Assembly: GCF_009735625.1 (NCBI RefSeq)
Contig: NZ_CP046244.1
Location: 310,001 to 374,000 of the forward strand
Length of the DNA stretch: 64,000 nt
DNA from: Moorella glycerini
GTDB taxonomy: Bacteria > Bacillota > DSM-521 > Neomoorellales > Neomoorellaceae
Reading direction: 5' to 3'
Of the stretch, positions 19,123 to 46,573 are shown piece by piece. The position numbers were made by a program, and so were the translations under genes. Position 1 is the stretch's first letter. The number at the start of each line of letters is the position of its first letter. The notes under the pieces were generated by a model that was not told the origin of the DNA, did not search any database, and saw nothing but the letters and a program-made list of their open reading frames with translations.

Positions 19123-19327
19123 TGATTTCCTCCCATAATTTTAGAGTTTCCAGGGCTTCCTCCATATCAAGCTTACTTATGGCATACCCGGCGTGGAGGA
19201 GAACAAAATCTCCCACCTTGACTTCCGGCGTTACCCCAATGCTGATGCGACGCCGATTACCCATTATATCTACCCAGGCATACAGACCTTCAATTTTATA
19301 TATCTTAGCCGGTACAGCTAGACACAT
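19100..19327 (-). CDS. hypC: Hydrogenase maturation chaperone HypC
   Basis: HypC carries the Fe(CN)2CO unit between HypD and the large subunit. The product (75 aa) begins 'MCLAVPAKI', with the essential Cys2 directly after the initiator Met, followed by the OB-fold segment 'GDFVLLHAGYAISKLD'. It overlaps hypF by 10 bp upstream and hypD downstream. No oddity. Confidence 0.97.
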   Translation of the reverse strand: MCLAVPAKIYKIEGLYAWVDIMGNRRRISIGVTPEVKVGDFVLLHAGYAISKLDMEEALETLKLWEEINGVTTEV

Positions 19328-21618: not shown

Positions 21619-22247
21619 TGACACCAGGCCTCCACCCCCTCATCTTTCAGGGCAGATACCGGAAAGATTTGAATAGCGGAGTTGATGCCCCGCACATCTT
21701 GCTCCAAGGCATCCATGTCAAAATTCGTATAGGGCAACAGGTCGATCTTATTAACTAACAAAGCCCTTGACTCCCGAAACATAAGTGGATATTTGCAAGG
21801 CTTATCGTTACCTTCAGTAACACTCAGAACCATTACCTTCATATCTTCACCTATGTCAAATTCGGCGGGGCAGACTAAATTGCCAACGTTTTCTACCACC
21901 AATAGATCTAATTCATCAAGGTTCAAATCCTCGAGGCAAGAAGCAATCATATTGGCATCCAGATGGCAAGCGCCACTGGTATTGATTTGCACCACCGGTA
22001 CACCTTTTTGGGCAATTCTCTCAGCATCCCTGGCCGTACAAATATCACCCTCGATGACACCAATATTAAGTTGATGTTGCAAATGTTCAATGGTTCTTTC
22101 CAAAATGGTGGTCTTGCCCGAACCGGGAGAACTCATTAGATTAAGGACAAAGACTCCTTTTTCCCGGAACAGCTCCCGGTTGGCAGCAGCCAGGGTATCG
22201 TTAACCCCCAAAATACTGGAAACAAGCTTAATCTGCAACAACTTCAA
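21579..22247 (-). CDS. hypB: Nickel-insertion GTPase HypB
   Basis: GTPase that, with HypA, delivers nickel to the hydrogenase large subunit. The P-loop is 'LMSSPGSGKTT', followed by 'GVIEGDICTARDAERI' (switch I region) and 'VNKIDLLPY' (NKxD base recognition). The His-rich N-terminal nickel-storage stretch of some HypB proteins is absent. Length 222 aa. It lies 44 bp after hypA and overlaps hypF. Confidence 0.96.
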   Translation of the reverse strand: MKLLQIKLVSSILGVNDTLAAANRELFREKGVFVLNLMSSPGSGKTTILERTIEHLQHQLNIGVIEGDICTARDAERIAQKGVPVVQINTSGACHLDANMIASCLEDLNLDELDLLVVENVGNLVCPAEFDIGEDMKVMVLSVTEGNDKPCKYPLMFRESRALLVNKIDLLPYTNFDMDALEQDVRGINSAIQIFPVSALKDEGVEAWCQWLTQLVRRKREK

Positions 22248-22291
22248 CCCCTTATCTTCCTAATAGTTAGTACCGCCTTACCGCAGTATCC

Positions 22292-22636
22292 TTAATCGCC
22301 CTCAATATAGTCAACATAGAGTTCACTCCCGCTAACAATGTCGACATCGGTACATTCGCATTGGGGACAGCGGAAGCGATAACCCTCCACTAAAAACTGG
22401 TGAGAACATCGCCGGCAGCTTCCCTCTATTTCCTTTATTTCAACCTCCAGTTCCCCCTGCGCTATGAGGGGGATATCTTCTTTTAGTGTAGTAAAGCAGA
22501 ATTCCAGGGAGTCAGGTACAACTGCCCTTAGCTTTCCTATAACCAACTTTATTTTCGTGATCCGGCGTAAACCGTAACTATGAGCGTTTTTGGTCACAAC
22601 ATCTAAGATTCCTTGCATTAATGCCAGCTCATGCAT
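22292..22636 (-). CDS. hypA: Nickel metallochaperone HypA
   Basis: HypA binds nickel through its N-terminal 'MHE' and zinc through two CxxC pairs. Here the protein begins 'MHELALMQGIL' and carries the pairs in 'CRRCSHQF' and 'CPQCECTD'. The open frame continues upstream to 22660, but the family requires Met-His at the N-terminus, so ATG 22636 is chosen (114 aa). First of the hyp genes in the operon. Confidence 0.95.
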   Translation of the reverse strand: MHELALMQGILDVVTKNAHSYGLRRITKIKLVIGKLRAVVPDSLEFCFTTLKEDIPLIAQGELEVEIKEIEGSCRRCSHQFLVEGYRFRCPQCECTDVDIVSGSELYVDYIEGD

Positions 22637-22705
22637 GCAGTTCATCCCCAGGCTCCACAAAATCTAGACCAACCGAAGTTGTTAGTTAGCTGATTTAACT
22701 TCTGG

Positions 22706-24096: not shown

Positions 24097-24627
24097 TCAG
24101 GTTCCTGAACCAGACTGCCAAAAAAGGATTTTTGCCAAAAGCTCCCGCATTGCCATAACTGTGGCCGCCACCTCAGTTGTTAAGGAAGCTCCAAAGGCCA
24201 GGTTGCCCGGCTGGATGCCGATTATAAATAGATCAGCGTTTGTTTCCCTTTGGAGATAGGCAGCTAAGAAAGAAAGGGGCAGGCCATGGGTAGAAGTGCA
24301 ATAAGCACCTACCTCATCCATTTCGATGATGCTCACGGCACCTGGTGGTGCCCCCAGGTCTGCGGCATCGATAAAAACAACATGACTTGGCTGCAACTTA
24401 ACCAGACGGCCTAAAAAGTTCTCGGGCATGTCACCGCAATTTATTATGACTACATCCCCTCTATCCAAACCTGTTTCTTCTAAGGCGTTGATTACCGCTA
24501 CCCCTGCCCCATCATCACCACGAATCTCGTTACCCACGCCGCATAAAGCTACTACCCTGCGCTTGGCAAGGCGGCAACGCAAGGCAGCTTCCAGGCTGCC
24601 CTGCGCTTCCTTTGTTGTTTCCAGCAC
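24097..24627 (-). CDS. Hydrogenase maturation endopeptidase (HycI/HyaD family)
   Basis: Nickel-dependent protease that removes the C-terminal extension of the [NiFe] large subunit after metal insertion. Family marks are 'GVGNEIRGDDGAGV' (first metal-binding Glu/Asp), 'FIDAADLGAPPG' (second Asp) and 'STHGLPLSFLAAYL' with the His ligand. I start it at GTG 24627, which overlaps the TAG stop of the CGGC gene by one base (TAGTG) and gives 176 aa; the long upstream extension of the open frame overlaps that gene and looks non-coding. The likely substrate is the large subunit at 27904-29661, which has about 25 residues after its last Cys motif. Confidence 0.9.
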   Translation of the reverse strand: MLETTKEAQGSLEAALRCRLAKRRVVALCGVGNEIRGDDGAGVAVINALEETGLDRGDVVIINCGDMPENFLGRLVKLQPSHVVFIDAADLGAPPGAVSIIEMDEVGAYCTSTHGLPLSFLAAYLQRETNADLFIIGIQPGNLAFGASLTTEVAATVMAMRELLAKILFWQSGSGT

Positions 24628-25058
24628 TATTCCCTCTGACCTCCTCCTTCCAACTGTTGCAGAAACTGTACAACCTCGTACATCTTGTTGTTCGAGCGGA
24701 AGTAGCGCACGCATTCCTGGTGGTTGCCTCTCACTACCCGTACCCCCAACTTTTCCAGTCCCGCAATGATCCGATCCATATGGGGGCAACGGGAATAAAA
24801 ATCCTCCCAAATCAGGCAGGCAGCGACATGCACTACGTTAACACCAGTCTCCCGCATCAGCTTGCGAACAATAGGAACTACCCCTTTACCCGGGCAACCG
24901 GGACATTGAAAGTTGGCTATGACCTGAAGGCTATCACCATAGCGCTTTGCCCGGGCTTCTCCCCTTAGGAATGACTTCTTACAGATAACGCTGGGGCAGG
25001 TGGTCTCTACCTTGGCGCAACCCATTAGAGCAACCTTAGCGATGTCTCCCGTCAACAT
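24627..25058 (-). CDS. CGGC-domain protein
   Basis: A 143-aa cysteine-rich protein resembling the CGGC domain family: 'CPGCPGKGVVPIVRKL' in the middle, 'VVHVAACLIWEDFYSRCPH' after it and an N-terminal 'GCAKVETTCPSVICKK'. These proteins are thought to bind metal or a FeS cluster; function is unknown. Here it lies between the GltD-like subunit and the maturation protease of the hydrogenase, sharing one base with the latter, so a role in assembly or electron transfer of the complex is possible. ATG 25058 lies 15 bp downstream of the previous stop. Confidence 0.78.
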   Translation of the reverse strand: MLTGDIAKVALMGCAKVETTCPSVICKKSFLRGEARAKRYGDSLQVIANFQCPGCPGKGVVPIVRKLMRETGVNVVHVAACLIWEDFYSRCPHMDRIIAGLEKLGVRVVRGNHQECVRYFRSNNKMYEVVQFLQQLEGGGQRE

Positions 25059-25072: not shown

Positions 25073-26944
25073 TTACTCGCTCCTGGCCTGCACCCTTATT
25101 TGTTCCGGATCCACCGCACCCGTAAAGCATAATTCATATTCGGAAGTTAAATGGTACATGCCACAACGGCAGACCTCCTCGCACATCTGACACATGACAC
25201 ACTGGAGAAGCCTGATCACAGGGGGGCCCGTAGCCTTCCAGGCGGTATCATTCCAATAGACGTCTTCCTTTTGCGGGTCAAGCTTGAGCTCGATGGCATT
25301 AGCCGGGCAATACTTTAGACACAATTCGCAGCCCACACATTTGTAGCAGCTTAAGCAACGCCTGGCCTCGTTACGGGCCATCTCTTCGGTATAACCCAGA
25401 TAGACTTCTTTAAAATTGGTCTTACGCTCTTCGGGAGACAGCATGGGCATGGGCACTCGTTTTTTCTGCCAGGCCTCTTCCCGCAGGAACATATAACGTC
25501 GCTCGGCAGTAATGTCCAGGGCCTTTAAATCTCTACCGTAGTCATATTCATCAACAAAGGGATTGCCCTCATTACTGCCGCTTAAGTAGCGGTCGATGGC
25601 CAGGGAGGCACGGCGGCCGCCGGCCAGGGATTCTATAATAGTTGATGGCCCGCGAATTACCTCTCCCTCAGCAAAAACTCCAGCAACACTGGTGGCCCCG
25701 CTGTCCGGATCTACAGCTATCAAAGTGTCGCCGCGCGTGAGCTGGAACTGAGAGCGCTCTTCTCCCAGGACGCTTAAGTCGGCCATCTGGCCAATGGCAA
25801 TGAGCACGCTATCGCAGGGGATGACCTCGTGGGTAGACTCATCCAAGACAGGGTTGAAACGCCCTTCACTATCAAACACCGATTTGACTCCTATCAATTC
25901 GACCCCCGTTACCCGGCCATTCTTGCCCAAAACTTTTCTCGGCGCCCGGCGATGGAGAATTGTCATGCCTTCTTCGCAAGCCTCAGTTATTTCCCAGGCG
26001 TGAGCAGGCATTTCTTCCCGGCTTTCCAGGCATACCAGTTGAACTTCCGCCCCCAACCGGATGGCACAACGGGCCACATCAATGGCAACATTGCCGCCTC
26101 CAACAACTATGGCTTTTTTGCCAAGGTCGATCTTTTCGCCCAGGTTAAGGGCCCGCAAAAAATCGATGCCCCCCCATACTCCTTTTAGTTCTTCGCCCTG
26201 AACCCGCAACTTACGGCTGATATGGGAGCCAATACCTATAAAGATAGCCTTATAACCCATACCCCTGAGGTCGGCGAGGGATATATCCCGGCCAATGCGT
26301 ACACCTGTGCGAAACTCTACGCCCAGGGCTGCAATAGCCTCTATTTCTGACCGGAGGACGTCTAGAGGCAACTTGTAGCGGGGCACTCCATAGCGTAACA
26401 TCCCGCCCGGTTCCGGCAAGGCCTCAAAAACTGTCACCGGATAGCCTAGATAGGCCAGATCATAGGCAACCTGTAGACCGGACGGGCCGGCACCCACAAC
26501 GGCAACTTTTTTTTGCGGATCCTGGTTCTTAGTGCGTACCGGCTTTTTCAGCAGTGGCTCGCCGCGTTCTCTCTTTTTTTGGTAGACCCAGTCGGCAACA
26601 AAACGCTTCAACCAGGCATCGGCTACGGGCTCCTCTTCTCCATAATTGCGTTTACACATTTCCTCGCAGGGGTGATTGCAGGTACGACCAAGGGAGGCGG
26701 GCAGGCATACCTTCTGCCGGATGAGTTCAAGTGAACCTTCATAATCTCCCTCTACTATCTTACGTACGTATCCCCGTATATCTAAATGGGCCGGGCAGGC
26801 GAGACGAGCCGGGTCTGGCTTCTCATTAACGACGATTTCCGGCTTACCCCTGAGCCCTGCCGGTACAGGCGGTTTAACGAAAGGGTAAGGAGTGGTGAAA
26901 GGTTTTTCTACCAGGCGCTTTAACGTTTCCAGTTTTACACTCAT
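25073..26944 (-). CDS. GltD-like NAD(P)H:acceptor flavoprotein fused to a NuoI/MbhN-like ferredoxin domain
   Basis: Predicted cytoplasmic electron-input subunit of the hydrogenase (623 aa). Domains: an N-terminal GltD-type FeS domain (cysteines in 'RLACPAHLD' and 'GRTCNHPCEEMC'); an FAD Rossmann motif 'VAVVGAGPSGLQVAYDLAY'; an NAD(P) motif 'AIVVGGGNVAIDVARCAI'; and a C-terminal two-cluster ferredoxin with 'CVGCELCLKYCP' and 'CVMCQMCEEVC' followed by 'TSEYELCF', as in NuoI/MbhN. No separate MbhN gene exists in the operon. ATG 26944 has GAGGTG six bases upstream. It follows the NuoH-like gene by 15 bp. Whether NADH or NADPH is used is not readable. Confidence 0.88.
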   Translation of the reverse strand: MSVKLETLKRLVEKPFTTPYPFVKPPVPAGLRGKPEIVVNEKPDPARLACPAHLDIRGYVRKIVEGDYEGSLELIRQKVCLPASLGRTCNHPCEEMCKRNYGEEEPVADAWLKRFVADWVYQKKRERGEPLLKKPVRTKNQDPQKKVAVVGAGPSGLQVAYDLAYLGYPVTVFEALPEPGGMLRYGVPRYKLPLDVLRSEIEAIAALGVEFRTGVRIGRDISLADLRGMGYKAIFIGIGSHISRKLRVQGEELKGVWGGIDFLRALNLGEKIDLGKKAIVVGGGNVAIDVARCAIRLGAEVQLVCLESREEMPAHAWEITEACEEGMTILHRRAPRKVLGKNGRVTGVELIGVKSVFDSEGRFNPVLDESTHEVIPCDSVLIAIGQMADLSVLGEERSQFQLTRGDTLIAVDPDSGATSVAGVFAEGEVIRGPSTIIESLAGGRRASLAIDRYLSGSNEGNPFVDEYDYGRDLKALDITAERRYMFLREEAWQKKRVPMPMLSPEERKTNFKEVYLGYTEEMARNEARRCLSCYKCVGCELCLKYCPANAIELKLDPQKEDVYWNDTAWKATGPPVIRLLQCVMCQMCEEVCRCGMYHLTSEYELCFTGAVDPEQIRVQARSE

Positions 26945-26959
26945 GCTCTTCACCTCGCC

Positions 26960-27901
26960 TTAGTGCATGATAATTATCCGCATCAGATCCAGGGCTGCGA
27001 TGGGAGCTACGCCAAACCAGAAAAAACGCAAGGTTTGATCGATACGCAGGCGGGCGCAAACGGCCCGGATATAGCTCACCAGGCCCAATAATGCCAGGGT
27101 TTTAAGCAAAAAGCTGACTATGGGAGGCAATACAAAAGCGCCAAAATGGATGGATTCGGGTCCGCCAAAGAACAGGGATACCGCCAGTCCGGTAACGATT
27201 ACCAGTTCAAGATGCTTGGCCAGGTAAAACAATGCCAATTTAGGACCCGAATACTCAATGAAAGGTCCATCATGAATCTCATAGAGAGCCAGAGGTGCGT
27301 CAAAAGGTACCTTGTAGAGAATGGCAGGTAAAACCGTCAGGAGAGCAACAGCTGCCAGGGGAGCCTTCAAAAATAACCACCCGTGCTGGGCCTGGAAACT
27401 GACTATCTCGGTTAGGCCAAGGGAGCCAACGATTATTACCGGAGATAGTACGCTCAGGATCAAAGGGAATTCGTAAGCCAGCAAAAGGGTTAGACTGCGG
27501 GAACCGCCTACAGCTCCGTAAGGATTGCTCGAAGATAACCCTCCTATCCCAATGGCCAGCTCGGGAATGAGCAATAAAGCCAGAATTACCAGCAAATCGC
27601 CAGTGGAGGCAAGCACGGCCTGTGACGAACTCATAGGTATGAGCAGGAGCAGTACAGTAGTGCTAGCTACTGCCAGGACAGGAGCCAGGTTAAAGACGCT
27701 GCTTACAGCGGCGGCAGGTGTCAAATCCTCTTTGACAAAAAATAGTTTCCCGAAATCATAAAACGCCTGCCAGATAGGGGGCCCCATGCGATGCTGCATC
27801 CGGGCATAAAGCCTGCGGTCTATACCTTCATAGAGAAAACCTAAGAATGAGCAAAAGAGAAGACCAGGAAACCCCACAACCTGCAAGATAGTCTCGGCCA
27901 T
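26960..27901 (-). CDS. Membrane subunit of Mbh-type hydrogenase (NuoH/MbhM/HycD-like)
   Basis: Integral membrane protein (313 aa, about eight hydrophobic segments) of the NuoH/HycD/EchB family that anchors the peripheral hydrogenase arm and contributes to the ion path. Typical loops are 'RMQHRMGPPIWQAFYDFGKL' near the N-terminus and 'YKVPFDAPLALYEIHDGPFI' in the middle, the latter with the acidic residues of the quinone/E-channel loop in complex I relatives. It starts 3 bp after the large-subunit stop codon. ATG 27901 is adopted. Confidence 0.93.
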   Translation of the reverse strand: MAETILQVVGFPGLLFCSFLGFLYEGIDRRLYARMQHRMGPPIWQAFYDFGKLFFVKEDLTPAAAVSSVFNLAPVLAVASTTVLLLLIPMSSSQAVLASTGDLLVILALLLIPELAIGIGGLSSSNPYGAVGGSRSLTLLLAYEFPLILSVLSPVIIVGSLGLTEIVSFQAQHGWLFLKAPLAAVALLTVLPAILYKVPFDAPLALYEIHDGPFIEYSGPKLALFYLAKHLELVIVTGLAVSLFFGGPESIHFGAFVLPPIVSFLLKTLALLGLVSYIRAVCARLRIDQTLRFFWFGVAPIAALDLMRIIIMH

Positions 27902-27903
27902 AC

Positions 27904-29661
27904 CTACAACCTCACCCTTTCCTGATAAAGTTCATCCAGGGTATAAATATGACGGCGACCAGTTTTGGCGCTGACCAGCGTCACCCGCTCCACACATCCG
28001 TAACAGTGATCAAAGGTGCGAATGGTAATGGGGATGTCGGCCACACTGTCTCCCACCAGGGCCGTTTTAAAAGCATTGATGTTGGCACCAGTGGGGCCGC
28101 GAAGACGGTTACGCTCCAGAACCTCGGTGCCGTTACCCCGCATATAGTGGCAGCACTCGCCCCGCGGCGCTTCCCAGCGCATAAGGGATTCCCCCTCGGG
28201 GATAGTATCCGGGGGCAAAACCCTAACGGGCCCGGCCGGCAGGTTAGCTAAAATCTGGCGGATAATCTTAGTAGATTCGTAGCACTCGTAAATCCGCACC
28301 AGGGTACGGGCCAAATTGTCGCAAGTGTCAAAAACAGCCATATCCCAGTCCAGGAGAGGGTAGACCGAGGCAGGGTCAGATTTACGGGTATCAAATCGAA
28401 TGCCAGACCCCCGAGCCATCATGCCTACGATGCAGAGTTTACGAGCATCTTCTTTGGGGATAATGCCTACGCCCTTCAATCTCGCGATGGCAGTGGGCTC
28501 CCTGGTGAATATACTTTCGTAGTACTTGGTCTGCTCATCAAGGTAGTCCATTGCCTCCAAAATCTTATGGGCTATGTCGGTATTTATATCCCGGCGCACG
28601 CCGCCTTCTGTATTGTAATCTTTGCGCATGCGGTTACCGCACATGGCTTCAATGATATCATTAATTCGCTCGCGGTCGCGCCAGGTATAATGGAAAACGG
28701 TATCGAAGCCCATGTCCTGGGCAATGATGCCGAACCAGAGATAATGGGACTGTAGCCTCTCCAGCTCCATCATCAGCGCCCGCAGGTAATGGGCCCGGGG
28801 CGGAATTTCTAAGCCCATTCTTTCTTCCAGGCAGTAGGCAAAAGTACTGGCTTCGGAATGATCACAGATGGCGCATATTCGCTCGATTAAATAGTGGGCT
28901 TTGGGATAGGGACGGCTTTCAATAGCCTTTTCCATGCCGCGAAAATTGTAACCCAGAATGAAGTCGACATCCACCACTTCTTCCCCGTCAATAACGAACT
29001 GGAAGTGCACCGGCTCTTTTAGAATGATATGTTGGGGCCCCAGGGGCAGGATAAAGCGACCCTTCTGCCCTCCCTCCTGGCGGCCCGGGGGGTTATAGAC
29101 CTTCTTGCCTATAACTTCTTCTGATGACCTTTTCTCCTGGTAAAGCCTGGTGAGGTCTTCGTTAGTGTATTCCTTTCGTAACGGGTAAACCTCTCCCGGC
29201 CAGTCTTCCGGCAGATAAATCGGCCGGTCATCGGGTATACCTTCTACCTTGACCCCGAAGAAAGACTGCAGCTCGCGTTCATACCACAAAGCCCCGGGGA
29301 TCAGGTGGGTGATGGTAGGCACCCGGGCTTCACTGTACGGCACCCTCAAACGGAAATTAACGGTACAGTAAAGTTTGGGGAAATCGCCCTCCGAGATGTG
29401 GTAGAGAACTTCCAGTTCCTTATGATTATCTACCCCGGTAATGAAGGTAAGGAACCCCATGTCATACTTTGTCATCAGGTACTTGATGCCTTCCAGCAGG
29501 CCGGTTTGATCCACGTCTATCCAGGCGCGGCCGGCGGCGGCCTCATAGGGTAGGCATACTTTCCGATCATGATCGAGGCGATACCCCAAAAAATGGGGTC
29601 CCAGAACATTTTTCAGCTCCAGGGCCAGCATTTCGGCATTCTTTTCGTTGGGACTCGCCAT
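27904..29661 (-). CDS. [NiFe] hydrogenase large subunit with fused NuoC-like domain (MbhK-MbhL/HycE type)
   Basis: Catalytic subunit of a group-4 [NiFe] hydrogenase (585 aa). The N-terminal ~180 residues are the NuoC/MbhK-like 30-kDa domain ('GALWYERELQSFFGV'); the rest is the NuoD/MbhL-like large subunit. All four nickel-binding cysteines are present: 'RICAICDHSEA' (usual G replaced by A) and 'FDHCYGCVERV' (usual DPC becomes DHC). About 25 residues follow, consistent with a peptide removed by the protease at 24097. It is therefore a real hydrogenase rather than a NuoCD. It follows the NuoB-like gene after 50 bp. Confidence 0.95.
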   Translation of the reverse strand: MASPNEKNAEMLALELKNVLGPHFLGYRLDHDRKVCLPYEAAAGRAWIDVDQTGLLEGIKYLMTKYDMGFLTFITGVDNHKELEVLYHISEGDFPKLYCTVNFRLRVPYSEARVPTITHLIPGALWYERELQSFFGVKVEGIPDDRPIYLPEDWPGEVYPLRKEYTNEDLTRLYQEKRSSEEVIGKKVYNPPGRQEGGQKGRFILPLGPQHIILKEPVHFQFVIDGEEVVDVDFILGYNFRGMEKAIESRPYPKAHYLIERICAICDHSEASTFAYCLEERMGLEIPPRAHYLRALMMELERLQSHYLWFGIIAQDMGFDTVFHYTWRDRERINDIIEAMCGNRMRKDYNTEGGVRRDINTDIAHKILEAMDYLDEQTKYYESIFTREPTAIARLKGVGIIPKEDARKLCIVGMMARGSGIRFDTRKSDPASVYPLLDWDMAVFDTCDNLARTLVRIYECYESTKIIRQILANLPAGPVRVLPPDTIPEGESLMRWEAPRGECCHYMRGNGTEVLERNRLRGPTGANINAFKTALVGDSVADIPITIRTFDHCYGCVERVTLVSAKTGRRHIYTLDELYQERVRL

Positions 29662-29711
29662 CTCATCTTCCCCCCAATTGTCTCTAGTCAGGGCTTTACT
29701 ACTTTACCAGG

Positions 29712-30176
29712 TCATACGCAGGCTACCTTTTTACCGTAACGGCGGGACTTTTCTGCCAGGATGCCCAACGCCTGCACCGCGGCATGAATTACTCCGTCCG
29801 GCCGGTGAGGGCATCCCGGGACATAAACATCAACAGGAATAACTTTATCTACCCCTCCAATGATATTAAAGCAATCCCGGAACGCGCCCCCGGAGCAAGC
29901 ACATGACCCCGAGGCCACTACTACCTTGGGCTCCGGCATTTGTTCGTACACCCGCCGGAGAATGGGGGCTGTATTATAATTCACTGGTCCGGTGACAAAG
30001 AGGATATCGCCATGGCGGGGCGAGCCTTTTAATAAAATACCAAAGCGTTCTACATCCAAATAAGGCGTAAAGAGAGGTAACAGCTCCGTATCGCATCCGT
30101 CGCACGAACACGCGTTAACCCAAACGGCCCAGGGCGACTTGGTCTGGAAGAAAGCCCGGACATCTCCCCAATTCAC
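29712..30176 (-). CDS. [NiFe] hydrogenase small subunit (NuoB/MbhJ/HycG-like)
   Basis: FeS small subunit (154 aa) carrying the proximal [4Fe-4S] cluster next to the nickel site. The ligands are visible as Cys pair 'CSCDGC', 'GSCACSGG' and 'VPGCPHRPDG'. It has no signal peptide, so it stays cytoplasmic as in group-4 enzymes. It begins two bases after the antiporter-like gene stop. Its partner is the large subunit directly downstream. Confidence 0.95.
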   Translation of the reverse strand: MNWGDVRAFFQTKSPWAVWVNACSCDGCDTELLPLFTPYLDVERFGILLKGSPRHGDILFVTGPVNYNTAPILRRVYEQMPEPKVVVASGSCACSGGAFRDCFNIIGGVDKVIPVDVYVPGCPHRPDGVIHAAVQALGILAEKSRRYGKKVACV

Positions 30177-30177
30177 T

Positions 30178-32025
30178 TCAAATCCCTCCTATCGTCTGTA
30201 CCAGTAAGAAGATAAGCACGCCTACCGTTAAAATCACCCAGCCTAGCCCACCTTTAAGAAAACTTAAATCCAGGGCACCAAGCACCGGACCGAAGATGCG
30301 GCGAACAGCCCAGTACAGGTGCTGGCCAGCCATGTATAGTTCCCGGTCGGCGTAGCTGCAGCCCCACCCATCGCCTACTGTGGATACACCGTTGAGGTAA
30401 AGGGCGCTCTTTCCCGGGCAGGGTTGGGACCGTGTCAGCGACCTGCTGACTGCTACGACCAGGGAGGCTAAAACTGCTATTCCTAGCAAAAGCACGCCGG
30501 TTACGACAGGATCCCAGTAGCCCCAGACTTGAACCGCAGGTACAGCATCCGCCAACACTGCTAAAGCTGGCCTTAAATAAGTCAACGCCTGTGCTGGCCA
30601 GAGCCCCAGCAGGATACAAAGTATAGCGAGTACCCATGTTGGGAGCATGGTCAGAAATGAAGGCTTAAAAATCTTTCCTTCTGATTTCACCGGACCCAGG
30701 AATAAGCCGGAGAAGACCTTGCCGTAGGCTATAAGGGTCAGAGCGCTCACTACCACCGCTATTACAGTGAGAAACGGATGCCCTGCCTCTAAGCCGGCTC
30801 GATAAATCAGCCACTTGCTGGCAAAACCGTTTAAAGGCGGTACTCCAGCCGAGGCCAGGGCCGCCAACCCGAAGAGCATAGTATTGGTAGGAAGCCGCCG
30901 GCCCCAGCCGCCCAGGTAGCGCAGCTCACTGGTGCCAGCCTGACGGATGATGACTCCCGCTGCCAGGAACAGCAGGGTCTCCATAATAGCGAAGTTCATC
31001 AGGTGAAGTAAGGCGCCGCTGGAGCCAATTGGTGTCCATAAGCCCAAGCCCAGCAGGATATAGCCTACCTGGCTAATGGAAGAGTAAGCCAGAACGCGCC
31101 GCAAATCATTTTGCTGGAGAATTAGAAAGCCGCCAACTAGCATCGTCAGCACGGCTAAGGCCAGCAGTATGGGCCGGACTATATTTAGCCAGGGAATATA
31201 AATGACAACCAGGAGACGTACCAGGGCATAAAGAGAGGCAGTCGTCGAAGCAGCTGCAAGAACAGCTCCCACAGGCATGCTTGCGCCAGCGTAGGCATCG
31301 GGCTTCCAGGAATGCAGCGGTACCACCGCCGCCTTTAGCCCCAGACCGGTAATTAGCGCGGCCATAGCCAGAGACAAGGCCAGGGGAGGCTGCCCCTGGA
31401 TCCCTAAGGCCTGGACTTTAAGGGCAAGGTCCCTCATATTCAAGGTGCCAACTAAGCCGTAAAGAACAGCAATCCCCAGCAGGACAGCTCCAGTCCCCAC
31501 CGATCCAAGCACCAGGTATTTATAAGCACCAGCTATCGCCTCAGGCCGCTCCTCTTCAAAGGCTACTAAGCCGTAAGCAGCAACGCTCATGATCTCCAGG
31601 AATACGTAAAGGTTAAAAATATCACCTGTGAAGGTAAGGCCCATTATTCCGACAGTGAGTAAAAGATAGAGGGTATAAAATCGTGTTAGTCCACTGTTCT
31701 GGCTCATATCTGCTACGGTATAAATGCCCACCAGCAAGCTGACCCCGGCCACCAGCAGAGCTACCATCAAGTTAAAACCGTCGATATTAAGGGTGATGCC
31801 CCACGGAGCCGGCCAACTTCCTAACCGGTACTCAACTTCTCCCCGGGTCCAGATGATCTGGGCCAGGCCAAGGCAAGCTGCACCACTGATACCGAGGCTG
31901 ACCACGGCAAACCAATCGCGAAGGCGCGGCAACCTCCATCGCTCCACTACCATCCCGACCAGCGGTGTAAGGAAAGCCGCCGCAAAAAGAATCACTATGG
32001 GTAAGATCGGCAATTGTTCCCGCAT
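30178..32025 (-). CDS. MrpD/MbhH-like ion-pumping subunit with MbhI-like C-terminal extension
   Basis: Large antiporter-like membrane protein (615 aa) of the NuoL/M/N-MrpD family. Key segments are 'NLYVFLEIMSVAAYGLVAFE' (membrane Glu), 'LHSWKPDAYAGASMPVGAV' (the pumping Lys/His region) and 'LRRVLAYSSISQVGY'. Pyrococcus MbhH has about 500 residues; the extra ~110 at the C-terminus contain a hydrophilic stretch and a final helix 'LGWVILTVGVLIFLLVQTI', which matches the position and size of the separate MbhI subunit. I infer an MbhH-MbhI fusion. It begins 1 bp after the MnhC-like gene. Confidence 0.93.
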   Translation of the reverse strand: MREQLPILPIVILFAAAFLTPLVGMVVERWRLPRLRDWFAVVSLGISGAACLGLAQIIWTRGEVEYRLGSWPAPWGITLNIDGFNLMVALLVAGVSLLVGIYTVADMSQNSGLTRFYTLYLLLTVGIMGLTFTGDIFNLYVFLEIMSVAAYGLVAFEEERPEAIAGAYKYLVLGSVGTGAVLLGIAVLYGLVGTLNMRDLALKVQALGIQGQPPLALSLAMAALITGLGLKAAVVPLHSWKPDAYAGASMPVGAVLAAASTTASLYALVRLLVVIYIPWLNIVRPILLALAVLTMLVGGFLILQQNDLRRVLAYSSISQVGYILLGLGLWTPIGSSGALLHLMNFAIMETLLFLAAGVIIRQAGTSELRYLGGWGRRLPTNTMLFGLAALASAGVPPLNGFASKWLIYRAGLEAGHPFLTVIAVVVSALTLIAYGKVFSGLFLGPVKSEGKIFKPSFLTMLPTWVLAILCILLGLWPAQALTYLRPALAVLADAVPAVQVWGYWDPVVTGVLLLGIAVLASLVVAVSRSLTRSQPCPGKSALYLNGVSTVGDGWGCSYADRELYMAGQHLYWAVRRIFGPVLGALDLSFLKGGLGWVILTVGVLIFLLVQTIGGI

Positions 32026-32026
32026 T

Positions 32027-32398
32027 TTATTTCCCCCTCAGCCCGACAGTGTCCGTAACTCCCAAACGTTGGTATGCTTTTACGGCCAGGGATAGGGCTA
32101 CGGCCGATACGCAAACGCCGATAACAATGGCGGTAAGAACCAGGGCCTGGGGGAGGGGGTCTACGAATGAAGTGGCCAAGCTTGTTACTATTTCCTTCGC
32201 CCCTTCGCCCTCTGGTAAAATGGGAGCCCTCCCGCCAGCGCGATAACCCAGACACAGCAGGAGTAGATGTAAACCGTCGCTCATAATCTTTAGGCCAATG
32301 GCGATCTTAATCAGGTTTCTCTTGAACAGCAGGCAATAGATGCCCAGCATAAAAGTTAAAATGGCCACTCCATACGGTAAGTTCTGCCACATTAACAT
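32027..32398 (-). CDS. MnhC/NuoK/MbhG-like membrane subunit
   Basis: Small three-helix membrane protein (123 aa) of the MrpC/NuoK family. 'GLKIMSDGLHLLLLCLGY' and 'DPLPQALVLTAIVIGVCVSA' carry the family's conserved intramembrane pattern. Overlaps the upstream MbhE/F fusion gene by 7 bp. Part of the ion-translocating module. Confidence 0.92.
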   Translation of the reverse strand: MLMWQNLPYGVAILTFMLGIYCLLFKRNLIKIAIGLKIMSDGLHLLLLCLGYRAGGRAPILPEGEGAKEIVTSLATSFVDPLPQALVLTAIVIGVCVSAVALSLAVKAYQRLGVTDTVGLRGK

Positions 32399-33252
32399 TC
32401 CGACCCCCTTCCCGCCTCTGGTGCTACCGGTTTCTGCCTTGTAGAACGATAAGCCTGGTCACCTCCGGCCAGAATGAAGGCCAGGACGACGGTGAGAAGA
32501 CCAGCTGCTACATGCAATCCTGTTCCCAGGTTATATAGAGGAACGGCACCACCGCTAAAAAGAGTACCGAAGCCACCTTTGGGGAAAATATTGGTCATAA
32601 AACCTACACCAGCCAGCAAACTAGCTATACCTACAACAACAAGCAGGAAGCTGCCGAAAGCATCCATTGCCTCCAGGCGGTGGGACGTAATTCTACTCCT
32701 TAATCCATCGATACCATAAGCTAGGATAAGCATGATCACCGCTGAGGCTACGATCACCCCGCCGGCAAAGCCGCCACCCGGCGTCAGGTGCCCATGGGCA
32801 ACGACGTAGACACCGAAAAGCAGGGCGATGGGACACAGTATCCTCGCCACAACTTTTACAATTACAGTCATCCCATGGCCCATTTTTGAATCCCCCACTA
32901 AGTTACCCGCTTGCTTCCTGCTGCTTTTAACGCCTTCCCGGTTACGAAAGAGAGCGGCTGCTGCGCAAACGGCAGTAAACAAAACAGTGGCTTCTCCCAA
33001 GGTATCAAAGCCGCGGTAATCCCACATAACAGCTGCCACTATATTGCGATTACCGCTTTCGCTGGCGGCCCGGACATTAAAATCTGTACCGATGCTTTCA
33101 GTGTGGAATCCCAGCCACTGGCGCTGGGGAAAATCTCCGAAAGGCGGAAAGGCTTGGAGAGCGGCTGCAACCAGAAAAATGGTTAAAGCAACCACTAACG
33201 CCAACATCAGCCACCTTCCTAAGAAGTCACCAGCGCGCTCCTGCCTATTCAT
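32392..33252 (-). CDS. MbhE-MbhF-like fusion (MrpA C-terminal element + MrpB)
   Basis: Membrane protein of 286 aa combining two subunits that are separate in the archaeal Mbh. The first ~105 residues contain 'AAVMWDYRGFDTLGEATVLF', the MbhE/MrpA C-terminal motif. After a polar linker ('REGVKSSRKQAGN'), the rest is MrpB/MbhF-like with 'VVAHGHLTPGGGFAGGVI' and 'YNLGTGLHVAAGLLTVVLAF'. It overlaps both neighbours (8 and 7 bp). The fusion is continuous in frame with no stop. Confidence 0.9.
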   Translation of the reverse strand: MNRQERAGDFLGRWLMLALVVALTIFLVAAALQAFPPFGDFPQRQWLGFHTESIGTDFNVRAASESGNRNIVAAVMWDYRGFDTLGEATVLFTAVCAAAALFRNREGVKSSRKQAGNLVGDSKMGHGMTVIVKVVARILCPIALLFGVYVVAHGHLTPGGGFAGGVIVASAVIMLILAYGIDGLRSRITSHRLEAMDAFGSFLLVVVGIASLLAGVGFMTNIFPKGGFGTLFSGGAVPLYNLGTGLHVAAGLLTVVLAFILAGGDQAYRSTRQKPVAPEAGRGSEC

Positions 33253-33535
33253 TTTTCGTCACCACCTTAGAAAGGCCCTCAGCTTCCTCTTCCCTTTTGG
33301 TGAGGCTAATGGCTAGGACATATAGAACCGTGCTCAGACCCGCCCCCACTGCCGCTTCGGTAATAGCCACATCAGGAGCCTGGAGCATATAAAAGACCAG
33401 GGCCAGGATAGCACTAGCGCCCCCGCTAGCCAGGACGGCATAGAGCAGGTCATGCTGATGTACTGCCAGAACGCAGGCCAACAAGAAAAAAAGGAGAAGC
33501 CCGTAGAAGATATAAGCCTCGATTCCGTTCATCAA
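33245..33535 (-). CDS. DUF4040/MbhD-like subunit
   Basis: A 96-aa membrane protein with three hydrophobic segments, matching the DUF4040 element found in MrpA and as MbhD. The pattern 'ASGGASAILALVFYMLQAPD' followed by 'VAITEAAVGAGLSTVLYVLA' is diagnostic. It overlaps the MnhG-like gene by 4 bp and the fusion gene by 8 bp. Confidence 0.92.
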   Translation of the reverse strand: MMNGIEAYIFYGLLLFFLLACVLAVHQHDLLYAVLASGGASAILALVFYMLQAPDVAITEAAVGAGLSTVLYVLAISLTKREEEAEGLSKVVTKNE

Positions 33536-33867
33536 TTACCCACCTCCCGGAGTAAATCTCGATTTGGTTCCTTCAACCATGGTTTCGTCCCAGCATAGTG
33601 AGCCGCCCGGCTGATGGCATGGGCTCCCACCGGCGAGGTACAAAACAAAAATAATACTACCAGGACTGCCTTGAGGCTATAAGGGCTACCAAAACAATAA
33701 AGGGCAATCCCTATCAGACAGAGCCCGGCCCCACCCGCCACCGCTACCGTGCTGGCATGGAGGCGGCAGTAAACATCAGGAAGGCGTATGAGGCCAAGAG
33801 CACCTACCAAAGCGCAAAAGGCGCCGATGGCAAGGAGGGATTTTCCGGCCAGGTCCAGGAGGTTCAT
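33532..33867 (-). CDS. mnhG: MnhG/MbhC-like subunit
   Basis: Small membrane protein (111 aa) of the MrpG family with 'GALGLIRLPDVYCRLHAST' and 'TSPVGAHAISRAAHYAG', the two conserved blocks. Overlaps both neighbours by 4 bp. In Mbh-type complexes it belongs to the Na+/H+ antiporter-like half. Confidence 0.93.
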   Translation of the reverse strand: MNLLDLAGKSLLAIGAFCALVGALGLIRLPDVYCRLHASTVAVAGGAGLCLIGIALYCFGSPYSLKAVLVVLFLFCTSPVGAHAISRAAHYAGTKPWLKEPNRDLLREVGN

Positions 33868-34145
33868 GACCCAATCCCCCTTCCTTCAAGGTATTTGGCT
33901 ATGGCCAGGGTGCCAACGAATGCCAGCAACGCGTAGACAAAAGCTATGTCCAGGTAGAAATCTTTTTGATAATAAATACCGAGAATAATTAAAATTGCCG
34001 CCAGTAAAGCTGTAAAGGCATCCAACCCTACTACCCGGTCGGCCAGGGTAGGCCCCACTGCCACCCGGAACAAGCAAAGGATAGAGGCCACTCCCAGTGC
34101 TAAAGTTATGATTAATAAAAAGTTCATTCTACCACCTTCTGCCAC
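33864..34145 (-). CDS. mnhF: MnhF/MbhB-like subunit
   Basis: Small three-helix MrpF-family protein (93 aa). 'VGPTLADRVVGLDAFTALL' is the family motif and 'IAFVYALLAFVGTLAIAKYL' the last helix. It overlaps the MnhE-like gene by 22 bp and the MnhG-like gene by 4 bp. An N-terminally shorter form from a later Met is possible. Confidence 0.92.
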   Translation of the reverse strand: MAEGGRMNFLLIITLALGVASILCLFRVAVGPTLADRVVGLDAFTALLAAILIILGIYYQKDFYLDIAFVYALLAFVGTLAIAKYLEGRGIGS

Positions 34146-34666
34146 AATTTTGCCCAGGGCCCAAGGATCGCACTGGCAGCCATTTCAGGGACGAGGGTGG
34201 ACGCATCCAGCCAGTGCACATAAAGGTGTCCCTGATCGCGGTCAACGTCCATTGTCAAGGTGCCCGGCGTCATGGTGATCCCGTTGGCTACCCCGGTTAG
34301 ACTGACCTCATGTTTGGCTTCAAGGGGTATACAAACAATAGCCGGATTTATGGGAAGACGCGGGTGCAGGATTAAATAAATAACCTGCAAGTGGGACTGT
34401 ACTTCCGCCCAGAGGTAAAACAGGAGAAAAAGCAGTGCCGTGCCCCACCGTAACGGGTTTAACAGCGAGGCAACACGACCTGTAAAGAAAAAATCTGTAG
34501 CCAGCAAGGCAATCACTAAGGCCACCGCCGCGCCGGTGTAAACCTCGGGCAGCAGCACAGCTATACTTGCGCCCGGTAAAACCGCTCCAGCAAAGATGAG
34601 CCACATCAGCCACAGGAAAACAGCGGTAGCAGTAAATCTTATAAATTTGGGAGACGAGGTTGGCAA
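34124..34666 (-). CDS. mnhE: MnhE/MbhA-like subunit, first gene of the hydrogenase operon
   Basis: MrpE-family protein (180 aa): two or three N-terminal membrane helices, then a cytoplasmic domain with 'TMTPGTLTMDVDRDQGHLYV' and 'VHWLD', the conserved MrpE block. ATG 34666 is preceded by a GGAGG-containing region (34677-34682). It is the promoter-proximal gene; the start is 85 bp from intergenic repeat copy 1, which carries a sigma-54-like element. Everything downstream to 17018 runs in the same direction without a gap above about 70 bp. Confidence 0.92.
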   Translation of the reverse strand: MPTSSPKFIRFTATAVFLWLMWLIFAGAVLPGASIAVLLPEVYTGAAVALVIALLATDFFFTGRVASLLNPLRWGTALLFLLFYLWAEVQSHLQVIYLILHPRLPINPAIVCIPLEAKHEVSLTGVANGITMTPGTLTMDVDRDQGHLYVHWLDASTLVPEMAASAILGPWAKLWQKVVE

Positions 34667-34835
34667 AAAAGATTACCTCCTTTCCTTGGAACATAAAGGT
34701 TTCGCAACACACCTTAGAAGTAAGCGTTCACCTCTTCGTGGATAATTTATCCCTCCTCCCTTTACCTCAGGCCAAGGTTAAACAAGTATTCCAGCGGCAC
34801 ATATCAAAAGTCCTTAATGTGTGATGGTGGCTACA

Positions 34836-34851: not shown

Positions 34852-34953
34852 TAAACTACTTATAAGCAAAATCCATGCCAGATTTATCGCAATGACAATA
34901 ACCCCATGCGAAATATAGAGAATGTCCTCGGCTATCTCAATTATGTAGATACT

Positions 34954-34990
34954 AAAAACCGGCGGATGTGACATCGATGCCACATCCGCC
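34954..34990 (-). terminator. Terminator-like hairpin in repeat copy 1
   Basis: A perfect 10-bp stem GGCGGATGTG/CACATCCGCC (34961-34970 with 34981-34990) is followed on the minus strand by GGTTTTT (T at 34954-34958). It could end leftward transcription from the DUF1646 gene. Confidence 0.6.
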
Positions 34991-36759: not shown

Positions 36760-38154
36760 TTATTTTTCTGGCTTGAGGTTATGTTTGGCCAGCAACCGGT
36801 AGAGGGTCTTCCGGTCCATTCGCGCCGTACGGGCTGCCTCCGAAATATTGCCACCGTGTTGTTCCAGGAGCCTCAGCAAGTATTGACGTTCAAAATTGGC
36901 TATCCACTTTTTCTTGGCGGCAGCAAAGGAACTCCCACCCATGGTTGCCTGTTCATCATCACCAGTACCCCTTACTAACGAACGAAATTGTTCCGGCAAA
37001 TCCTCAGGCATGATAAAATCGTTTTCCGTAAGAGCTACTGCTCTTTCCAGTACGTTTTGCAATTCTCTGACATTACCCGGCCAGTGGTAGTTCTGCAATA
37101 ACTGCAAGGTCTGGGAGGAGATACCCTTAACTTGCTTATCATACATAATGTTAAACTTGCCAAGAAAATGAACAGTAAGTAAGGGGATGTCTTCCAAGCG
37201 CTCCCGTAAAGGCGGTAGGGTCAGGGAAATAACGTTCAGACGGTAAAAGAGGTCTTCACGGAAAGTCTTTTCTTGCATAGCCTTATTCAGATCAACATTG
37301 GTAGCGGCTATTAGCCGGAAATCTACCTGGATGAGGTGAGTCCCACCAATCCGGCGGACTTCACCCTCTTGCAGTACTCGGAGCAGCTTGGCCTGCAAAT
37401 TAATGTCCAGATTGCCGATCTCATCCAAAAAGAGGGTACCAGTGTGTGCCAGCTCAAAAATGCCTGGTTTTGTGCGGGTAGCCCCTGTAAAGCTACCCTT
37501 TTCGTAACCGAAAAGCTCACTTTCCAGCAAGGTTGGCGGTAAAGAGGAACAATCTACAGGAATGAACGGCTTTCCGGCCCGTCGACTGCTAGCATGGATG
37601 GCCTTGGCCAGTAGTTCTTTACCTGTACCGCTTTCTCCGCCAATAAGAACGCTGGCATCCGTGCGGGCTGCTTTTATAGCCAGCCGAATGACATGCTGCA
37701 TAGCGTTGCTCTTACCGATCAGTTGGTTAAAGCTGTGATGTTCTTGTAATTGACGCCGCAACTCCCTGTTTTCTTCCATCAGGTTTCTTTGCTGGAGAGC
37801 CCGTTCTATTACCAGGTGTAACTGACTTGCTGTGAAAGGCTTGGGAATATAATCATAAGCCCCGTTTTTGATAGCTTCCACCGCGGACTCGATGGTGGCG
37901 TAAGCGGTAAAAAATATGACCATGATATCAGGGTCATAATCCTTGGCAGCCCGGAGAATAGCCATCCCGTCCAATCGCGGCATTTTCAGGTCTGTCAAAA
38001 TAACGTCAGGTTTCTCATGCCTCAGGACGGCCAGGGCCTGTTCGCCATTGAGGAAAGTAACTACTTCATATCCAAGGGGCATCAATAAACGCCGGCAATT
38101 TTCTAGCATGTCTTCCTCATCATCAATAACCATGATCTTCCTTTTTCCTGCCAT
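36760..38154 (-). CDS. NtrC-family sigma-54-dependent response regulator
   Basis: Response regulator activating sigma-54 promoters (464 aa). Receiver domain (about 1-120) with the acidic pair 'VIDDEED' and phospho-acceptor Asp in 'ILTDLKMPRLDG'; AAA+ domain (about 145-380) with Walker A 'GESGTGKELLAKAIH', the sigma-54 contact loop 'GSFTGA' and Walker B 'LFLDEIGNLD'; Fis-type helix-turn-helix 'GGNISEAARTARMDRKTLYR' at the C-terminus. It follows the histidine kinase by 40 bp. Candidate targets are the sigma-54-like promoter of the hydrogenase operon and its own operon. A broken copy of its last exon-like segment lies at 35095-35143. Confidence 0.95.
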   Translation of the reverse strand: MAGKRKIMVIDDEEDMLENCRRLLMPLGYEVVTFLNGEQALAVLRHEKPDVILTDLKMPRLDGMAILRAAKDYDPDIMVIFFTAYATIESAVEAIKNGAYDYIPKPFTASQLHLVIERALQQRNLMEENRELRRQLQEHHSFNQLIGKSNAMQHVIRLAIKAARTDASVLIGGESGTGKELLAKAIHASSRRAGKPFIPVDCSSLPPTLLESELFGYEKGSFTGATRTKPGIFELAHTGTLFLDEIGNLDINLQAKLLRVLQEGEVRRIGGTHLIQVDFRLIAATNVDLNKAMQEKTFREDLFYRLNVISLTLPPLRERLEDIPLLTVHFLGKFNIMYDKQVKGISSQTLQLLQNYHWPGNVRELQNVLERAVALTENDFIMPEDLPEQFRSLVRGTGDDEQATMGGSSFAAAKKKWIANFERQYLLRLLEQHGGNISEAARTARMDRKTLYRLLAKHNLKPEK

Positions 38155-38194
38155 TTATCTTTATCTCCCTTCAGGAAGCATCTTTTATTTCCCG

Positions 38195-39529
38195 TTAGTG
38201 AGGACTTGATACGGTGGGCTTCGAAGGTTCTTGCCCACTTCTGGTCCCGGCAGCCGGCAGGGTTACTATAAACGTAGCCCCCTGGCCGGGTTGGCTATTA
38301 ACCTCAATACGGCCACCGTGATTTTCAATGATACCCCGGGTCACGAAGAGTCCCAAGCCTGTACCTTTACCCACCTCTTTAGTAGTAAAGAAAGGGTCAA
38401 AAATCCGCTCCAGGTTTTCTGGAGCAATTCCAACTCCTGTGTCGCTAACTTCTATTTCCACCCACCCGGAGACAGAGGAACGTGTTGAAACTTTGATTGT
38501 GCCTTCTTGGATAATAGCATCCCTAGCATTTTGGAGAAGATTAATCAGGACCTGTTGCAGTTGATTCGGATTGCCGTATATAAAGGGCAGTTTGCAGTCC
38601 AGATGCTTTTGCAGTTGGATGCGACCTTTCTCCAATTGCTTGCCTAGCAAGGAGAGCGCCCCTTCCACTACCTCATTCAGGTCCACGGGCAGGAAGGTTT
38701 CCGTTGAACGCCGGGCAAAGGAAAGCAGACTCTGGGTGGTAGTAGTTATACGCCGGGCATGCTTACCAATTACCTGCAGGTCTTTAATCAGGGAAGAAAG
38801 TTCAGGTTGTAGCCCGTTTTGTAATTCTGACAGCATACATTCCAGGCGGGCAAGAATTATGCTGGCCGGATTATTGATTTCGTGGGCCAGTCCCGCGGCC
38901 AGCTGGCCAATGGCCGCCATTTTTTCTGACTGGATTAATAGTCGCTCGAACCTTTTTAGTTCCTCGTACCTTTCTACCAGGGTCTTATTTAACTGGTTTA
39001 TCTCCCGGTTGGCCTCTTCCAGTTGTTGTTTTTCCTTTTGTAGCCTGGCAATTAGCCTGCTTCTTTGGATGGCCAGGCCGGTAAGGTTGGCTATGGCCAG
39101 GATTACCTCCTGCTCCTCCAGGGTAAAAACTCCAGGTTCTGCACTGGCTATGGATAGAACGGCTATAATTTTCTGGTCAACTTTAACGGGGAGGCAGAGA
39201 TATTTTTGGATGGCCTTCTCGGTCATCAGGTAAGCACAGTCGTGAGCGCCATCAGAGAGGTTAACTATCACCGGGAAACCATCACGCAGAGCCGGACACT
39301 GCCTGGAATTCAGTGCTTCCTGGCAAAGGTTTTTGCGGGGCTGTGATAGGAAACACCATTGAGCTTGGAAGGAAAAAGTTACTCCCTCCAGCAAGAAAAA
39401 TCGACAACAGTAAGTAGGGAAGAGCTGCTTCATTTCCTTTACCACCACGGTTACTATCTGGTCCACTTCCATAGGCAGGTAACCAAAAAGGTTATTTAGT
39501 TTAAGCACAGTGGCAAAAGCCTTATTCAC
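38195..39529 (-). CDS. Soluble GAF-domain histidine kinase with Cys-rich sensor
   Basis: Sensor kinase (444 aa) without transmembrane segments. An N-terminal GAF-like domain (about 10-165) has an unusual number of cysteines: 'YCCRFF', 'QWCFL', 'NLCQEA', 'RQCPALRDG', 'HDCAYL' and 'KYLCLPV', which could bind heme, a FeS cluster or a metal. A short coiled coil follows, then the HisKA box 'AAGLAHEINNPASI', N box 'LINLLQNARDA', G boxes 'DTGVGIAPENL' and 'GTGLGLFV'. It sits 12 bp after the methyltransferase-like gene and before its regulator, so both are in one operon. Confidence 0.93.
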   Translation of the reverse strand: MNKAFATVLKLNNLFGYLPMEVDQIVTVVVKEMKQLFPTYCCRFFLLEGVTFSFQAQWCFLSQPRKNLCQEALNSRQCPALRDGFPVIVNLSDGAHDCAYLMTEKAIQKYLCLPVKVDQKIIAVLSIASAEPGVFTLEEQEVILAIANLTGLAIQRSRLIARLQKEKQQLEEANREINQLNKTLVERYEELKRFERLLIQSEKMAAIGQLAAGLAHEINNPASIILARLECMLSELQNGLQPELSSLIKDLQVIGKHARRITTTTQSLLSFARRSTETFLPVDLNEVVEGALSLLGKQLEKGRIQLQKHLDCKLPFIYGNPNQLQQVLINLLQNARDAIIQEGTIKVSTRSSVSGWVEIEVSDTGVGIAPENLERIFDPFFTTKEVGKGTGLGLFVTRGIIENHGGRIEVNSQPGQGATFIVTLPAAGTRSGQEPSKPTVSSPH

Positions 39530-46567: not shown

Positions 46568-46573
46568 CAAAAC

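Follow-up and report, generated by a model that had tools for sequence, protein, structure and literature searches.

The window, a 64,000-nucleotide stretch of DNA from the heat-loving bacterium Moorella glycerini (contig NZ_CP046244.1, positions 310,001 to 374,000), carries on its minus strand (25073-34666) a complete Mbh/Mrp-type [NiFe] hydrogenase operon in which the place of the ferredoxin-type subunit MbhN is taken by a 623-residue fusion protein (Table 1). The anatomy of this protein, an MbhN into which a GltD-type domain for flavin adenine dinucleotide (FAD) and nicotinamide adenine dinucleotide (NAD) has been inserted, is strongly supported. From it we infer, with a probability of about two in three, that MbhN has been converted to an NAD(H):iron-sulfur (Fe-S) oxidoreductase that would serve an Mrp-containing, energy-converting hydrogenase as a non-bifurcating conduit. 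The M. glycerini genome comprises 3,559,463 bases in two contigs; strain DSM 11254T has the chromosome CP046244 and one plasmid (PMC6978639).

The hydrogenase core and the MbhN subunit

The operon genes follow the Mbh order and overlap or abut throughout. The large subunit aligned over its whole length with Pyrococcus furiosus MbhL and kept all four NiFe cysteines, with CAIC and CYGC aligned with C68/C71 and C374/C377 of 6cfw_L. NuoB aligned with MbhJ, its cluster cysteines were intact, and the Mrp-like antiporter module (A-H) and NuoH were present. Because the ligand cysteines of both the NiFe site and NuoB are intact, the complex is, judged by its sequence, a hydrogenase and not a relative of Mbx or complex I. 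The only other 49-kDa-type subunit in the genome was that of an 11-subunit complex I. A HycE-type hydrogenase, present in several genomes of the same genus and the same family, was absent from the M. glycerini genome.

No separate MbhN was found in the operon. All 20 group-4 hydrogenase operons compared from the phylum encoded a separate MbhN/HycF of 110-184 residues, most often located between nuoH and hycI, and the fusion occupies exactly this slot, after nuoH. A separate MbhN elsewhere in the genome was rejected: an MbhN-profile search recovered a single separate relative, the NuoI of complex I (90.9 bits), and placed the two-cluster (dicluster) domain of the fusion among generic ferredoxins. 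The same search gave 146-148 bits in relatives with Ech, and a missing MbhN would therefore have been detected. The NuoI gene sits in a complete nuo cluster for the 11-subunit complex I, without NuoEFG (G000:C1:2449000-2466000). This cluster adjoins RNase HII, and the complex I cluster of M. thermoacetica has likewise been described beside RNase HII (PMC13040438).

The best start of the fusion is the ATG at 26944, behind GAGGTGA and 15 bases past the nuoH stop; residue numbers are counted here from the GTG at 26953, from which the open reading frame (ORF) extends for 626 residues. Pfam placed Fer4_20 at residues 49-126, Pyr_redox_2 at 148-442 and Fer4_7 at 538-598, and the NCBIfam NuoI model matched residues 536-610 with 44.5 bits. 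As a whole the protein resembled PRK12771 (448.6 bits, under the cut-off of 516). Its GltD/NfnB-type body has the N-terminal Fe-S ligands C53, C92, C96, C100 and K116, FAD and NAD(H) Rossmann folds, K194 and the NAD motif C308-L309-E310. The segment VPMPMLSPEERKTNFKEVYLGYTEEMARNEARRCLSC, N-terminal in NfnB, is relocated behind the body in the fusion, and all eight cysteines of the dicluster are kept (C539, C542, C545, C549, C585, C588, C591 and C595).

The first 48 residues, unassigned before, identified the protein as an MbhN. A profile hidden Markov model (HMM) built from the N-terminal arms of MbhN and NuoI proteins, with the fusion left out, matched fusion residues 9-39; the family pattern is ...LFKKPATISYP......NFRGK.... 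Among 1296 ORFs and 2000 shuffled sequences the fusion ranked 45th with 26.5 bits, and the 44 above it were all MbhN, NuoI or HycF proteins, against 13.5 bits for the best shuffle and 4.9 bits for the best unrelated ORF. The GltD-ferredoxin relatives compared were without this arm. An MbhN arm at the N-terminus strongly supports an insertion of the GltD-type FAD/NAD domain inside MbhN, between the arm and the two-cluster ferredoxin.

AlphaFold modelled the GltD body with confidence (predicted local distance difference test, pLDDT, >90 over most of residues 150-460), and the body only, because MAFFT was unable to pair MbhN rows across the insertion. The closest structural matches of the body were StnC and NfnA/NfnB. 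The best PDB sequence match of the C-terminus was NuoI. When a separate model of the C-terminal 102 residues, made from an alignment with MbhN rows (mean pLDDT 58), was compared with Foldseek, the first 47 matches were all NuoI-type subunits of complex I, NDH-1 or formate hydrogenlyase (FHL), ahead of generic ferredoxins. These matches are supportive of a NuoI-like C-terminal domain and are not proof of it.

An earlier note on this DNA had named the operon genes and the intact nickel cysteines in the same way, and the Pfam and NCBIfam scans and the MbhL alignment bore it out. Its statement that the 623-residue fusion stands in for a separate MbhN agreed with the gene slot and the genome search, which recovered no MbhN of the kind that the note had named beforehand as refutation. 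The C-terminal domain of the fusion modelled onto NuoI, if at low confidence. The note had joined a GltD protein to the front of a NuoI-like ferredoxin; the domains were as described, and the arrangement had to be revised, since the GltD part follows the MbhN arm.

Table 1. Positions of the operon, fusion-protein and flanking features within the window
Feature	Position	Strand	Basis
MbhA (MnhE)	34124..34666	-	NCBIfam scan
MbhB (MrpF)	33864..34145	-	Pfam scan
MbhC (MrpG/MnhG)	33532..33867	-	Pfam scan
MbhD (DUF4040)	33245..33535	-	Pfam scan
MbhE+MbhF fused (MbhE + MnhB)	32392..33252	-	Pfam scan
MbhG (MnhC)	32027..32398	-	Pfam scan
MbhH (MnhD antiporter-like) with C-terminal extension of ~120 residues	30178..32025	-	6cfw_H match, residues 6-492
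MbhJ (NuoB), proximal [4Fe-4S] subunit	29712..30176	-	Pfam; alignment with MbhJ
MbhK+MbhL fused (NuoCD), [NiFe] large subunit, 4 ligand cysteines	27904..29661	-	Pfam; alignment with MbhL
MbhM (NuoH), proximal membrane subunit	26960..27901	-	PF00146, 236 bits
MbhN with inserted GltD-type FAD/NAD(H) domain, 623 residues	25073..26944	-	Pfam, NCBIfam, arm HMM
MbhN/HycF N-terminal arm, residues 8-40, LETLKRLVEKPFTTPYPFVKPPVPAGLRGKPEI	26834..26932	-	arm HMM, 26.5 bits
GltD/NfnB-type body, residues 49-460	25574..26809	-	Pfam; structure matches; alignments
Segment VPMPMLSPEERKTNFKEVYLGYTEEMARNEARRCLSC, about residues 500-536, ligands C533 and C536	25346..25456	-	alignment to NfnB 4ylf_B
NuoI/MbhN-type two-cluster ferredoxin with YEL tail, residues 539-611	25121..25339	-	NCBIfam; alignment; Foldseek
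CGGC-domain protein, between fusion and hycI	24627..25058	-	PF08821, 75 bits
HycI-type hydrogenase maturation protease	24097..24810	-	TIGR00142, 122.8 bits (cut-off 119.1)
hypE, hypD, hypF, hypB, hypA (hydrogenase maturation)	17018..22660	-	HypE and HypD by NCBIfam
Sigma-54-like -24/-12 site TGGCATGGATTTTGCT, 1 mismatch	34865..34880	-	motif scan
Palindrome GCGGATGTG-N10-CACATCCGC, candidate activator site upstream of mbhA	34960..34989		genome motif search
NtrC/AtoC-type response regulator (36760-38154) and histidine kinase (38195-39529)	36760..39529	-	regulator by domain scans, kinase by reading

Proposed electron path, energetics and alternative readings

In the complex as proposed, the arm and dicluster would dock on NuoH and NuoB as in Mbh, and electrons would pass reversibly along NAD(H), FAD, the Fe-S clusters of the GltD part, the two MbhN clusters, the NuoB cluster and the NiFe site, with the fusion acting as a non-bifurcating conduit in the manner of StnC. 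H2, at -414 mV, is the stronger reductant compared with NADH (E0' -320 mV, around -280 mV in cells), and H2 formation from NADH costs about 18-26 kJ/mol under ordinary conditions and is therefore unable to drive outward pumping. Mbh pumping occurs with electron flow from the clusters to the NiFe site. The reduction of NAD+ by H2 would, with less certainty, be the favoured direction: where H2 is high it releases about 18-26 kJ/mol, and if the Mbh coupling sense is kept, ion influx could pull it at trace H2, where it would be useful, with the coupling direction of a reversed Ech. For H2 to form from NADH, H2 would have to be very low or the coupling would have to run in the opposite sense to that of known Mbh; a gradient-driven version would call for an oppositely directed pump or for an enzyme that is uncoupled.

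We offer more tentatively, at somewhat less than even odds, a wider proposal: an energy-converting respiratory complex for NADH and H2 that is distinct from complex I, with a direct, non-bifurcating NAD(H) port supplied to an Mbh pump by a single polypeptide, in which H2 oxidation to give NADH, or the reverse, would be coupled, with neither ferredoxin nor NuoEFG involved, to the movement of Na+ or H+, and which would have originated by insertion of an HdrA-like GltD domain into MbhN. The parts are known, and their joining, with GltD inside MbhN, appears undescribed; no GltD-NuoI or NADH-linked Mbh fusion was found in the literature, subscription papers being outside the search. NADH being a weaker donor than H2, the complex poses an energetic puzzle: the pump would run in reverse, drive the uptake of H2 from trace levels, or be uncoupled. 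Its source is an available, cultivable type strain.

Several points weigh against the conversion of MbhN as we read it. By itself, the dicluster scored 37.6 bits with the MbhN HMM, compared with 35.6 for the best generic dicluster; it is not diagnostic, and the docking claim therefore rests on the arm, the slot and the YEL tail together. AlphaFold confidence was low for the arm and the C-terminus, and the alignment behind the C-terminal model contained MbhNs, so its NuoI matches are not fully independent. A sequence search for MbhI in the C-terminal extension of MbhH gave no match. The fusion family is known from two nearly identical copies and thus offers no deep conservation. Lastly, the direction and coupling of the complex are argued from thermodynamics.

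The alternative that survives best, itself unlikely, is that soluble ferredoxin still feeds the MbhN clusters for ferredoxin-to-H2 pumping and that the inserted domain lets those clusters reduce NAD+ as well, making the protein a branch point for ferredoxin:NAD+ and H2:NAD+ transfer. Both MbhN clusters are complete, MbhN is the docking site of ferredoxin in P. furiosus (PMC11228991), and the coupling sense would be unchanged. However, the inserted domain would lie beside the first of the MbhN clusters, where it may block access of ferredoxin, and ferredoxin electrons falling to NAD+ would waste the pump.

A confurcating or bifurcating hydrogenase, in which the GltD flavin bifurcates as in NfnB and H2 is made from NADH plus reduced ferredoxin, or consumed to form them, whether or not ions are pumped, is a little less probable again. 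The GltD part folds like NfnB, which has a bifurcating FAD; NADH by itself is too weak a donor for H2; and a predicted Mbh-Bfu, a group-4 hydrogenase with a bifurcating BfuABC module, has been proposed in Dehalococcoides (PMC9304861). For bifurcation NfnB relies on Glu as a cluster ligand and on Arg at FAD N5, but StnC has Lys as the ligand and is a non-bifurcating conduit (PMC10482914). In the fusion, K116 aligned with StnC K170 (Glu in NfnB) and K194 with StnC R239/NfnB R201, whereas the organism's own NfnB keeps the Glu and the Arg. Because both bifurcation-marking residues are lysine, a simple NAD(H)-to-Fe-S conduit is more likely than bifurcation. A partner was also missing from the operon: Pfam and NCBIfam scans of its ORFs found no gene for NuoE/F/G, NfnA, HydBC, a NuoF/HydB-like protein or BfuABC.

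An uptake hydrogenase that supplies NADPH is improbable. NADPH supply does matter in the genus, since another, NADP-reducing hydrogenase in M. thermoacetica serves CO2 reduction (PMC13040438). The NADP phosphate is held by YRR in NfnB and DsrL-2, and DsrL-1, without YRR, uses NAD (PMC7596348). The fusion has CLE at residues 308-310, while YRR is kept in the organism's own NfnB and in another of its GltD-like proteins; because CLE replaces the NADP motif, NAD(H) and not NADP(H) is the predicted substrate. CLE was also found in the 1487-residue HdrA of the genome's hdrCBA-mvhD-met cluster (methylene-tetrahydrofolate reductase, MTHFR), and the corresponding M. thermoacetica complex catalyzes NADH-dependent benzyl viologen reduction (PMC5861303). 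A tree placed the fusion body in a clade of 15 rows with 100/99 support, in which the readable motifs were CLE and the branching order was not resolved. Other genomes of the phylum encode proteins of about 850 residues whose CLE-type GltD domain shares 46-49% identity with the fusion body (e.g., locus L118 of genome G167).

It is very unlikely that the fusion is a soluble NADH-dependent oxidoreductase of the PRK12771/DsrL type that merely lies within the operon, with Mbh using the complex I NuoI or a generic ferredoxin: PRK12771 is its best NCBIfam relative, its dicluster alone scores little over generic ones and a NuoI is encoded elsewhere. Against this, a soluble enzyme would have no obvious use for the MbhN arm, which the other GltD proteins compared lack; the gene starts 15 bases past nuoH, exactly where an MbhN gene would stand; and the genome's NuoI belongs to the complete nuo cluster.

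Three functional suggestions of the earlier note are affected. Its link to NAD(P)H is narrowed, the NAD(H) part being retained and the NADP(H) part not; confurcation with ferredoxin is weakened by the lysines at both NfnB bifurcation residues; and a direct supply of NADH to an outward-pumping, H2-forming hydrogenase is doubtful on energetic grounds.

Distribution, flanking genes and regulation

The interval 18817-41438 matched one contig of a genome from the same order but another family (G018) with 93-98% DNA identity, and the rest of the window had no match to that contig except one short, weak stretch. The shared island of about 22.6 kb includes the hyp genes, Mbh, the DUF1646 transporter, the two-component regulators and an MtaA-like methyltransferase with a corrinoid protein. 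Because the island matches while most of the window does not, recent horizontal transfer of the module is suggested. Plasmid origin was rejected, as no match was found. G018 additionally encodes an Ech-type MbhN of its own, as well as the NuoI of a complex I. Between the two genomes the fused gene differed by 21 synonymous and 9 non-synonymous substitutions (Nei-Gojobori; ratio of the two rates, dN/dS, about 0.12), and it is maintained as a single protein by purifying selection. An assembly or frameshift artefact was rejected because the independent genome G018 carries the same fusion at 98.4% identity.

The earlier note had pointed to a search for the fusion beside mbh genes in other genomes, and G018 was the one such case. 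It was the only genome with the fusion among 61 relatives, the class (22 genomes) and 398 phylum genomes, and none of 29 related loci drawn from 84,980 species genomes had it beside mbh genes, in a search by short peptide patterns that distant fusions could escape.

Past the fusion the order is CGGC-domain protein, HycI-type protease, hypA, hypB, hypF, hypD and hypE. The HycI match started only at residue 89, and the true start of hycI probably lies well downstream in its ORF. The assignments of HypF, HypB and HypA rest on reading and on their matches to hyp homologues from other operons. Between hycI and hypA, at 22706-24121, is a 471-residue lipoprotein-like protein with a haem-type EB_dh (ethylbenzene dehydrogenase) domain, which is absent from the equivalent place in G018. 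The C-terminal extension of MbhH has two probable membrane helices and an amphipathic stretch and is possibly a fused MbhI equivalent.

Upstream of mbhA and of the DUF1646 transporter gene lies in each case a stretch of about 340 bp (34758-35093 and 36396-36734, respectively), and the two stretches are near-duplicates, 79-87% alike. The palindrome GCGGATG..CATCCGC (GCGGATGNNNCATNNATGNNNCATCCGC) occurs twice in the genome, the copy other than that before mbhA being at 36603-36632, upstream of the DUF1646 gene. The sigma-54-like site was not significant alone (2 found vs. 2.04 expected), and each near-duplicate stretch has one. Rfam detected no RNA elements in the duplicated promoter region. The NtrC/histidine kinase pair encoded next to these stretches probably controls the mbh operon together with the DUF1646 transporter as a two-operon regulon. 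Upstream of the regulators, 41562-50721 encodes a DsrP/NrfD-like membrane protein, two molybdopterin oxidoreductases (one with a twin-arginine translocation (Tat) signal) and another sigma-54 activator.

Comparison with known systems

P. furiosus Mbh (6CFW) has the Mrp-like module, NuoH, NuoB and the NiFe large subunit in the same order, and shares the ligands, the MbhN arm and the two clusters. Its MbhN, however, is a separate 139-residue ferredoxin-type subunit fed by ferredoxin, and this feature of Mbh is not found in the M. glycerini complex, where arm and dicluster lie inside the fusion and MbhN holds the FAD/NAD(H) domain. MbhK and MbhL, and MbhE and MbhF, are fused in M. glycerini, unlike in P. 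furiosus. Fdh-Ech (Ech1/Hyc) of other Moorella species is also a group-4 hydrogenase with hyp genes alongside, but is formate- or CO-linked, has a separate HycF and is absent from the M. glycerini genome.

The GltD-ferredoxin proteins DsrL and PRK12771 share the domain order of the fusion, from the Fe-S region through the FAD fold, the NAD(P) fold and the linker to the two-cluster ferredoxin at the C-terminus, and the NAD form of DsrL, like the fusion, is without YRR (PMC7596348). These proteins partner DsrAB or other soluble enzymes and lack the MbhN arm, whereas the fusion has a NuoI-like C-terminus and is encoded in a hydrogenase operon. StnC/NfnA of the Stn-type transhydrogenase (8OH5, 9BOV, 9N5U) resembles the fusion in its GltD-type module, lysine cluster ligand and non-bifurcating transfer to a larger machine. 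It differs in being NADP-type and fused to a NuoG-like domain, in a soluble complex with HydBC-like bifurcating subunits; Pfam and NCBIfam scans found no NuoG-like domain in the fusion. From NfnB the fusion differs in having K116, K194 and CLE in place of the Glu ligand, the Arg at FAD N5 and YRR. The HdrA of MetFV-HdrABC-MvhD, whose complex is NADH-reactive, shares the GltD-type module, the CLE motif and the supported CLE clade, but its module is 45% identical, fused to HdrA and soluble.

The predicted Mbh-Bfu of Dehalococcoides (PMC9304861) is a conceptual precedent, as a group-4 hydrogenase given a nicotinamide-linked module, although its separate bifurcating BfuABC subunits (HydABC/NuoEF-like) are unrelated to a GltD domain inside MbhN. 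Complex I (Nuo) differs from the M. glycerini complex in that the operon described here is without the NuoEFG NADH module and the NiFe ligands are present. Mbh-type hydrogenases serve as models of how complex I arose, and it has long been asked how NADH input was added to an ancestral ferredoxin-fed pump. The fusion would represent a second, independent solution, with an FAD/NAD domain placed in the very subunit that NuoEFG feeds in complex I.

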